The notes under the pieces: generated by a model | Database searches by the model: none | The model's input: only the letters and a program-made list of their open reading frames with translations | Told to the model about the DNA's origin: nothing | IMG/VR virus record: IMGVR_UViG_3300020171_000037 | Span: 1 to 52,948 of that record | Strand: one strand, 5' to 3' | Source: a virus | DNA: 52,948 nucleotides | Position numbers and translations under genes: made by a program | Shown: piece by piece, positions 6,466 through 35,224 of the stretch | Layout: each line of letters opens with the position of its first letter | Numbering within the stretch: position 1 is the stretch's first letter

Positions 6466-7644
6466 ATGAAAACGATTAAAAGGAACAACGGAAACGACAT
6501 TAAAATTTATGCAACTACTTTAGAAGATGTTGCATTTGAACAAATTAAAGAACTTGGCGAATTTGAACCATACCAAGATTCTAAAATTAGGATTATGCCC
6601 GATTGCCACGCTGGTGCAGGTTGCACCATTGGAACTACAATGGAAATTAAAGACAAAATTACACCTAATTTAGTGGGAGTAGATATTGGTTGCGGAATGC
6701 TTACGGTTAAACTAAAAGAAACCGATATTGATTTACAAAAGTTAGATGCTGTTATTAATGAATTTGTACCAAATGGATTTAATACACATACTGAACCTAA
6801 AGCAGAATTTGAGTTTGATAAATTGCTTGCTAAAAACCTAAACGTTGGACGTGCTAAATTATCAATTGGCTCTTTGGGTGGCGGAAACCATTTTATTGAA
6901 GTTGGTAAAAACTCAAAAGGTGAGTTATTTTTGGTTATACATTCAGGTTCTCGAAATATTGGTGGACAAGTTGCAAAATATTACCAAGATATTGCAATTG
7001 AAAACTTAACGGATAACTCTAAAGAACGTGAAGAATTGATTGAGCGTTTGAAAAAAGAAGGTAAGCAAAATGAGATTGGCGAAGAGTTGAAAAAACTTAA
7101 AAAACCAATTATAAACAAAGATTTGGCTTACCTAACTGGTACTGACTTTGATAATTATATGCACGATATGGAATTGATGCAGAAATTTGCTGTATTAAAC
7201 CGTAGAACTATGGCAAATATTGTATTAGAAAAGGCTCAATTAACCGAAGCCGAAGCATTTGAAACAATACATAATTACATTGATTTTAAACGTATGATTT
7301 TGCGAAAAGGTGCTGTTTCTGCTGAAAATGGAGAAACCTTACTTATTCCAATTAATATGCGTGACGGGTCAATTATTGCCAAAGGTAAGGGGAATGAAGA
7401 TTGGAACTACTCCGCACCACATGGAGCAGGGCGTTTGATGGGTAGAAATGAAGCACATAAAAAATTGAACTTTGATGAATTTAAAGAACAAATGAAAGAT
7501 GTTTATTCAACTTCTGTTTTAACCGAAACACTGGACGAAGCTCCAAACGCCTACAAGTCAATGAATGAAATTATCGAAGCAATTGGAGAAACTGTTGAAA
7601 TTGTAGATATTATCAAACCTATCTATAATTTCAAAGCTCATTAA
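6466..7644 (+). CDS. rtcB: RNA ligase RtcB (cassette 10)
   Basis: A 392-aa RtcB-type ligase that seals RNA 2',3'-cyclic phosphate (or 3'-phosphate) to 5'-OH ends using GTP and Mn2+. Visible motifs are MPDCHAGAGCTIG, VGVDIGCGM with the metal-binding Cys, GSLGGGNHFIE, HSGSRNIG, and SAPHGAGRLMGR with the guanylated His at about 319. It is full length for the compact RtcB group. In a phage it may repair tRNAs cut by host anticodon nucleases; this is inference. It fills cassette 10 alone. ATG 6466 follows an A/T-rich leader. The stop is about 23 nt before the closing half-site. Confidence 0.95.
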   Translation: MKTIKRNNGNDIKIYATTLEDVAFEQIKELGEFEPYQDSKIRIMPDCHAGAGCTIGTTMEIKDKITPNLVGVDIGCGMLTVKLKETDIDLQKLDAVINEFVPNGFNTHTEPKAEFEFDKLLAKNLNVGRAKLSIGSLGGGNHFIEVGKNSKGELFLVIHSGSRNIGGQVAKYYQDIAIENLTDNSKEREELIERLKKEGKQNEIGEELKKLKKPIINKDLAYLTGTDFDNYMHDMELMQKFAVLNRRTMANIVLEKAQLTEAEAFETIHNYIDFKRMILRKGAVSAENGETLLIPINMRDGSIIAKGKGNEDWNYSAPHGAGRLMGRNEAHKKLNFDEFKEQMKDVYSTSVLTETLDEAPNAYKSMNEIIEAIGETVEIVDIIKPIYNFKAH

Positions 7645-34586: not shown

Positions 34587-34628
34587 ACCCTCTGATTATT
34601 CCCGAAAAATAATTAGAGGGTTTTTTAT
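34587..34628 (+). terminator. Third terminator hairpin
   Basis: ACCCTCT-gATTATT-cccgaaaa-ATAATt-AGAGGG(T) followed by a run of T gives a long, strong hairpin. It insulates the tmRNA promoter that follows. Confidence 0.8.
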
Positions 34629-34638
34629 TTTAAATTAT

Positions 34639-34646
34639 TATCTTTG
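34639..34646 (+). promoter_or_regulatory. Candidate -7 box of the tmRNA transcript
   Basis: TATCTTTG matches TAnnTTTG and lies just after the third terminator and about 40 nt before the T-arm of the tmRNA. No good TTTG is found 19-21 nt upstream, so the promoter is only moderately supported. Confidence 0.45.
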
Positions 34647-34649
34647 AAT

Positions 34650-34935
34650 CAGTTCTTTAAGATATTAATAGTAAAATAGTTTGGACGGCGGTTCGATTCC
34701 GCCCAGCTCCACAATTCCAATTATAAAGCAAGGTTACCAACAACTTGTAAAAATGGTTTCCTATTTTAGAGAAGTCCTAAGTACCACTTTGGAGGTTATT
34801 ATCGAGAATGGGAATTACGGGGTTGACTGGTTTTGACAGCTACGAGTATGATTAATGGAGAGAACAAAACGCTTTAAACGGCAAAACAATTGAATTTTCT
34901 AAGCCATCATTAAGAATGGTAGCTTAGGTAGAATA
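34650..34935 (+). ncRNA. ssrA: Circularly permuted tmRNA (ssrA-like)
   Basis: The acceptor half comes first: T-arm GGCGGTTCGATTCCGCC and 3' end CAGCTCCA (to 34711). The coding half follows from GGGGTTGACTGG (34819). GGGGTTG and CAGCTCC pair as a tmRNA acceptor stem with two G-U pairs. Outside it, GGAATT (34811-34816) and AATTCC (34713-34718) extend the stem in the precursor, so a spacer of about 107 nt joins the halves. The tag frame is open through AAC GGC AAA ... to ATG GTA GCT TAG (34925-34927), ending in MVA, a ClpXP-type hydrophobic end. A P5-like hairpin, AAGCCATCATT/AATGGTAGCTT, holds the stop. It would rescue stalled ribosomes. Piece boundaries are approximate. Confidence 0.75.
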
Positions 34936-34964
34936 AAGCCCCTTAATTGGGGTTTTTTATTACC
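34936..34964 (+). terminator. Terminator of the tmRNA transcript
   Basis: AAGCCCC-ttaatt-GGGGTTTTTT is a classic rho-independent terminator directly after the tag region. Confidence 0.85.
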
Positions 34965-35034: not shown

Positions 35035-35039
35035 TAGTG

Positions 35040-35158
35040 TTAAAAAGACATTAAACGACCCGAAAGGGTACAAAAGTTGAGTTACGGTCAACTAATAAAA
35101 ACATAAAAAGACCTTTAGGGAGTAGAGCCGTAACCTCGAAACCTAGAGGTTTTTTATT
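35040..35158 (+). ncRNA. Pseudoknotted small RNA of unknown class, about 120 nt
   Basis: The transcript from the promoter at 35002-35034 would fold into hairpin ACCC-gaaa-GGGT (35058-35069) and stem GTTGA/TCAAC (35076-35092). The loop of that stem, GTTACGG (35081-35087), is complementary over 7 nt to CCGTAAC (35128-35134), an H-type pseudoknot. It ends with the terminator ACCTC/GAGGT plus T-run (35133-35156). Part of CCGTAAC overlaps the terminator stem, so the pseudoknot and terminator may exclude each other, as in an attenuator. No significant ORF is present. Confidence 0.6.
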
Positions 35159-35224
35159 TTATGACAAACCTATTTTTAACGCTTTCTAATGACTGCAAGC
35201 ACAACCCAATTAATCCACCTTAAT

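Follow-up and report, generated by a model that had tools for sequence, protein, structure and literature searches.

A circularly permuted tmRNA gene with Bacteroidia-type signatures in a phage of Bacteroidota

The viral record IMGVR_UViG_3300020171_000037, analysed here over its full 52,948 nucleotides (the window), carries a complete, circularly permuted transfer-messenger RNA (tmRNA) gene on its plus strand. An earlier note, made from the letters alone, had proposed such a gene at this locus and an Infernal search as its check. When the whole window was scanned with cmscan against Rfam 15, a single match was returned, RF04321 (tmRNA_permuted) at 34652-34927 (+), which covers the full model (1-213) and scores 64.3 bits, above the cut-off of 47 (E 3.5e-10 across the whole window). 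This score excludes a chance origin of the match. The locus is organized as follows.

34587-34621, plus strand: intrinsic terminator of the upstream unit, a 14-pair stem and then a T run, insulating the tmRNA
34639-34646, plus strand: TATCTTTG, matching in sequence the -7 element of Bacteroidota promoters (TAnnTTTG)
34652-34682, plus strand: 5' part of the acceptor piece, forming the 3' strand of helix P2 and pairing with 34838-34865 in three segments
34683-34703, plus strand: GGAC and the T-arm GGCGGTTCGATTCCGCC, the T-arm site also being written GGACGGCGGTTCGATTCCGCC
34704-34711, plus strand: 3' strand of the acceptor stem, CAGCTCC (34704-34710), with the discriminator A, together CAGCTCCA
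34712-34818, plus strand: intervening segment of 107 nt, expected to be removed
34713-34718, plus strand: AATTCC, predicted by folding to lengthen the acceptor stem in the precursor
34811-34816, plus strand: GGAATT, its predicted partner
34819-34837, plus strand: 5' strand of the acceptor stem (GGGGTTG, 34819-34825) and D-loop analogue GGGGTTGACTGGTTTTGAC
34838-34865, plus strand: 5' strand of helix P2, by folding
34866-34879, plus strand: short linker replacing pseudoknot 1
34880-34927, plus strand: tag reading frame GGC...TAG, with resume codon GGC, product GKTIEFSKPSLRMVA and stop codon TAG
34935-34958, plus strand: terminator-like hairpin CCCC-TTAATT-GGGG with a T run, closing the coding piece

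The T-arm and the 3' half of the acceptor stem are positioned upstream of GGGGTTGACTGG, an order that can be read directly in the sequence, and the tag frame ends in MVA and a stop codon, both as the note had described. Seven base pairs join GGGGTTG to CAGCTCC, including the G3-U wobble that serves as the alanine identity element, and the precursor fold agrees with the proposed extension of this stem by GGAATT/AATTCC. Co-folding of the two expected mature pieces yields the acceptor stem, the T-stem and a multi-part helix P2. Since the bases after CAGCTCCA are CAA, the gene does not encode CCA, which has to be added. Helix P2 is separated from the resume codon by 14 nt and the stop codon from the terminator hairpin by 7 nt, and the window copy therefore offers no space for any of pseudoknots 1 to 4. 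Within the linker, GCT-TTAAAC-GGC can make a three-pair hairpin with the resume codon, and the 3' half of the tag frame (34899-34927) folds as a hairpin like helix 5. The TATCTTTG element is weak evidence for a promoter, with a clear -33 TTTG absent; across the whole window the frequency of the Bacteroidota promoter pattern is not above chance. Part of the spacer (34755-34817) resembles the DUF3800-VIII RNA hairpin below threshold (37.6 bits, cut-off 40.2), a match that was sought in seven relatives and found in none.

None of the lineage models RF01849, RF01850 and RF01851 reaches its cut-off on the window; RF01850 (beta_tmRNA) alone appears, at 35.7 against 84 bits, and the standard model RF00023 tops out at 27 bits on this gene. 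The low scores of RF00023 and RF01850 are expected because the permuted form lies outside the modelled clades. ARAGORN, run on the window, called nothing.

The gene belongs to a family that is widespread in phages. A direct blastn search with the tmRNA region as query recovered, in phage records, terminators and T-arms only. Pattern scans for the permuted order retrieved 114 viral contigs, the majority CCA-encoding; scans demanding a non-CCA end gave about 70 hits, from which 51 distinct members, the window included, were retained after duplicates and false matches had been removed. The false matches that were discarded are L118, L121, L122, L125, L127, L159, L181 and L183, and L119 and L120 were rejected as standard host tmRNAs with a chance GGGG downstream. 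The RF04321 cut-off is exceeded in nine of eleven records checked, the two failures being standard host genes, and ARAGORN, run independently on 43 relatives, reports a permuted tmRNA in 30, and in 23 of these the tag starts with glycine. The window tag fits the series seen in these relatives, such as GKTINLFREVAIAA, GKVIQMNNAPVRLAA, GKTIEMKMAA, GEHVEMAMAA and GKVINMFGQPQLRAVA.

Across the family, the acceptor, T-stem and P2 pairings are backed by covariation. Acceptor pair 5:68, on which the search pattern put no constraint, has standard pairing in 51/51 members (AT 19, GC 15, CG 11, TA 4, TG 2), and the outer T-stem pairs form in 50/51. For P2, the duplex energy averages -13.9 kcal/mol between strands of one gene and -9.0 kcal/mol between strands taken from different genes (50 members, Wilcoxon p 8e-10). 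Because the members are related, this p value exaggerates their independence, but the direction is consistent. For the window by itself this contrast is small (-11.9 vs -10.6), so the support for P2 is drawn from the family. In 22 of 42 members, compared with 13% in shuffles, the resume codon is paired in a short hairpin, which resembles the weak 'helix m' of an earlier paper (PMC1168896). A class-wide helix 5 enclosing the stop codon was tried and rejected, folding supporting it in 16 of 42; this helix is claimed for the window alone.

Several features align the family with the standard tmRNAs of Bacteroidia. A U precedes GAC in the D-loop analogue (UUUGAC, not UUCGAC) in 45/51 family members and 26/29 Bacteroidia hosts, compared with 0/56 readable CCA-encoding permuted phage tmRNAs; the window has UUUGAC and no CCA, where the CCA-encoding phage forms have a UUCGA D-loop analogue and an encoded CCA. 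The bases preceding GGAC are UUU in 23/29 Bacteroidia standard tmRNAs, and the resume context is mostly (T)AA[AC]NGGC in hosts and phage family alike. In a tree of 63 columns, where the phage family is mixed with Bacteroidia genes, the window has a Bacteroidales standard tmRNA as its closest row (87% identity). The separate origin that the earlier note had suggested is well supported by these host-type signatures, although the tree, which agrees, is too poorly resolved to prove it. What sets the family apart from its hosts is the pseudoknot-1 segment, about 34 nt shorter: the distance from GAC to the resume codon has a median of 42.5 nt in the family and is 74-78 nt in 22/26 hosts (upstream in-frame Gly codons account for the remaining four), a comparison that required a Gly start and is not independent of the tag claim. 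Pseudoknot 1 is kept by most tmRNAs, including the two-chain molecule of Caulobacter (PMC1168896).

This dependence on the Gly start is one of several points that weigh against the reading given at the end of this paragraph. Three members, L019, L126 and L055, group in the tree with the CCA-encoding permuted forms, and because the tree has 63 columns only, one permutation event and several are indistinguishable. The Bacteroidia signatures could also be a convergence onto host SmpB and alanyl-tRNA synthetase. Moreover, no tmRNA is present in three flavophage isolates, phiSM, FL-1 and FCL-2, and a check of synteny among the nearest phages by endolysin found none, either by pattern in 80 loci or by Rfam in 13; the tmRNA is therefore an accessory gene. 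On balance, the window gene probably encodes a two-piece tmRNA that is functional, descends from Bacteroidia and became permuted separately from the alphaproteobacterial, betaproteobacterial and cyanobacterial lineages (probability of about 0.8). With somewhat less assurance, but still leaning in its favor, the family may be taken as a fourth independent origin of permuted tmRNA, confined to Bacteroidota phages and stripped of its pseudoknots, whose processing would be driven in part by spacers, some of them complete tRNA genes.

The most serious alternative, which seems unlikely, is that an already permuted tmRNA was taken from an alphaproteobacterial, betaproteobacterial or cyanobacterial lineage and then adapted to Bacteroidota hosts. 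Phage contigs commonly carry permuted tmRNAs of those types, L019 and L126 retain UUCGACAGG besides their position in the tree, and RF04321 and RF01850 both recognise the shared tRNA-like domain (TLD). The D-loop U, GUUUGGAC, the (T)AA[AC]NGGC context, the Gly-start tag and the missing CCA nevertheless all fit Bacteroidia standard genes, as does the nearest row of the window in the tree. A still smaller chance is given to a decoy RNA that titrates SmpB or blocks host trans-translation in the manner reported for the TLD-only RNA of mycobacteriophage DS6A, a type of RNA that inhibits tmRNA (PMC4131195; PMC11915505). The phage form, without the pseudoknot-1 region and with a tag unlike those of hosts, would suit such a role; yet the tag frame recurs throughout the family with its resume codon, its stop codon and an AA/VA-type end, all superfluous in a decoy, and the retention of this frame makes a decoy less likely. 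That the locus is a dead remnant, left for instance by integration into a host ssrA gene, is very improbable: ssrA is a frequent integration site of phages and the window phage has a tyrosine integrase, but the integrase gene lies some 27 kb away, the parts stand in permuted order, neither the halves nor the tag are damaged, terminators flank the gene and P2 covaries across relatives.

For a functional two-piece tmRNA, known tmRNA biology suggests how the window gene would be processed and used. A single precursor would be transcribed; the host tRNA 3' processing enzyme would cut after A34711, with CCA then added, and RNase P would cut before G34819, the 107-nt spacer being discarded. The resulting 60-nt acceptor piece and coding piece of about 140 nt would be held together by the acceptor stem and P2. 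Alanyl-tRNA synthetase would charge the product through the G3-U pair, and host SmpB would deliver it, as the phage lacks its own (smpB was absent from all seven phage records searched). In the simplest proposal for a benefit to the phage, ribosomes stalled on mRNAs broken during infection would be rescued with the addition of AGKTIEFSKPSLRMVA. Permutation of a Bacteroidia one-piece tmRNA, in phages or captured by them, is the most likely source of the family; the pseudoknot-1 region would have been lost in the course of this, as would, in the window copy, all room for pseudoknots 2-4.

The spacers of relatives hold elements of their own. Complete tRNA genes lie inside four of them: Ala in L130 (3674-3748, -), Glu in L136 (5855-5927, -), Ala in L160 (4462-4536, +) and His in L370 (640-712, +); the spacer of L155 looks by sequence like tRNA-Ala. 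Processing of such a nested tRNA would release both pieces of the tmRNA. A motif of about 24 nt, CTAACCCGTCGCGTTAGTACGG, recurs in the spacers of L049, L123, L128, L137, L147, L150, L175 and L185. Its CCGU/ACGG pairing varies to CAGU/ACUG and CUGU/ACAG, and CUAAC/GUUAG possibly forms an H-type pseudoknot; the motif may be a processing signal.

Alphaproteobacteria, betaproteobacteria and cyanobacteria, the groups described by RF04321, are the recognised carriers of two-piece tmRNAs (PMC11915505). The window family shares with those tmRNAs the order of the halves, the tRNA-like domain, P2 and the tag after the D-arm half, and differs in the absence of an encoded CCA, in UUUGAC for UUCGAC, in the Gly-start tag, in the missing pseudoknot-1 region and in its carriage by Bacteroidota phages. 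With the one-piece Bacteroidia tmRNA (RF00023) it has in common GACTGGTTTTGACAGC and GTTTGGAC, the AA[AC]NGGC context, a Gly-start tag and, usually, no encoded CCA; the Bacteroidia gene, in contrast, is unpermuted, has its D-arm and resume codon about 34 nt farther apart, and encodes tags ending in ALAA or AMAA. Only three permuted lineages are recognised in bacteria, and a phage-borne fourth, if true, would show that permutation recurs. The family would also be a natural test of which tmRNA parts are dispensable, its pseudoknot-1 region being reduced to a short linker.

As the earlier note had stated for Bacteroidota hosts, the Bacteroidia hosts sampled carry one-piece tmRNAs: 37 of 40 Bacteroidia genomes hold a standard tmRNA above cut-off, and the three others gave no permuted match either. 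Among 395 genomes of the phylum, the cut-off of the permuted model is exceeded by a single prophage, that of Zeaxanthinibacter sp. PT1 (Flavobacteriaceae; contig 1, 986035-986308; 63.1 bits), the one genuine case among six genome hits. This copy is flanked by genes for DNA polymerase A, DnaB, rIIA, rIIB and an integrase, which places it in a prophage, and the same genome carries a standard one-piece tmRNA scoring 160 bits. If the family is what it seems, phages maintain a ribosome-rescue RNA of their own beside that of the host, while the sampled hosts keep the one-piece form.

The interpretation in the note is thus supported, with two qualifications: two-piece tmRNA phages, mostly marine, were already known (PMC9004378), so that a permuted tmRNA on a phage is not new as such, and crass-like records had been annotated automatically. 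The marine-phage tmRNAs follow alphaproteobacterial, gammaproteobacterial or cyanobacterial lineages in the published tree, Melnitz being of the alphaproteobacterial type and having a glutamine riboswitch (PMC9004378). Comparable to the window gene are the annotated tmRNAs of the crass-like phages cr60_1, cr10_1, cr50_1, cr114_1, cr125_1 and cr272_1 and of Chryseobacterium phage MA9V-3, all permuted according to ARAGORN, with the RF04321 cut-off exceeded in 4/7. Like the window gene they are permuted, carry Gly-start tags (GNNFVTDYTQLAVA and others) and belong to Bacteroidota phages; they differ in their tag subgroup (mostly GN...DYT) and in the phages that carry them. No publication discussing these permuted tmRNAs was found, nor any paper on the Bacteroidota phage family in a full-text literature search whose coverage excluded most subscription papers, preprints and supplementary tables. 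Since the family takes in flavophages and, with a related Gly-tag form, crass-like gut phages, it is relevant to how translation is controlled in abundant viruses. In crass-like phages the permuted tmRNA is preceded at short distance by RAGATH-9 and RAGATH-20 RNAs (L367:384-552, L370:116-283, L364:228-329). The Callevirus tmRNA of Cellulophaga phages Calle_1 and phi40:1 is of the standard one-piece form (RF00023); the deposited Calle_1 feature (L362:924-1283; MT732432.1 43002-43361) seems to be offset by about 52 nt from the positions given by ARAGORN and Rfam (872-1231/1233).

The window itself is a temperate, contractile-tailed phage of Bacteroidota type, with genes for integrase, TerL, portal, contractile sheath, tape measure, DnaB, RecT and antirepressor. 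Its best TerL and sheath matches, with identities of about 31-34% and 29-31%, are to Cellulophaga phage phiSM and to Flavobacterium phages FL-1 and FCV-1/FCL-2; together with the relative in the Zeaxanthinibacter prophage, they bear out the assignment made in the note. An RtcB-type RNA ligase (6466-7644) adjoins the integrase gene. A link between this ligase and the tmRNA was considered and rejected: among 26 records, RtcB occurs in the window and in none of the 25 related tmRNA-bearing ones. Downstream of the tmRNA lies a second small structured unit (35037-35160), which folds strongly (z -4.06), is preceded by a TATCTTTG element and ends in a terminator. A narrow pattern found no copies of it in viral contigs. 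Its hairpin loop GUUACGG is complementary to CCGUAAC at the base of the terminator, so this unit could be a switch.
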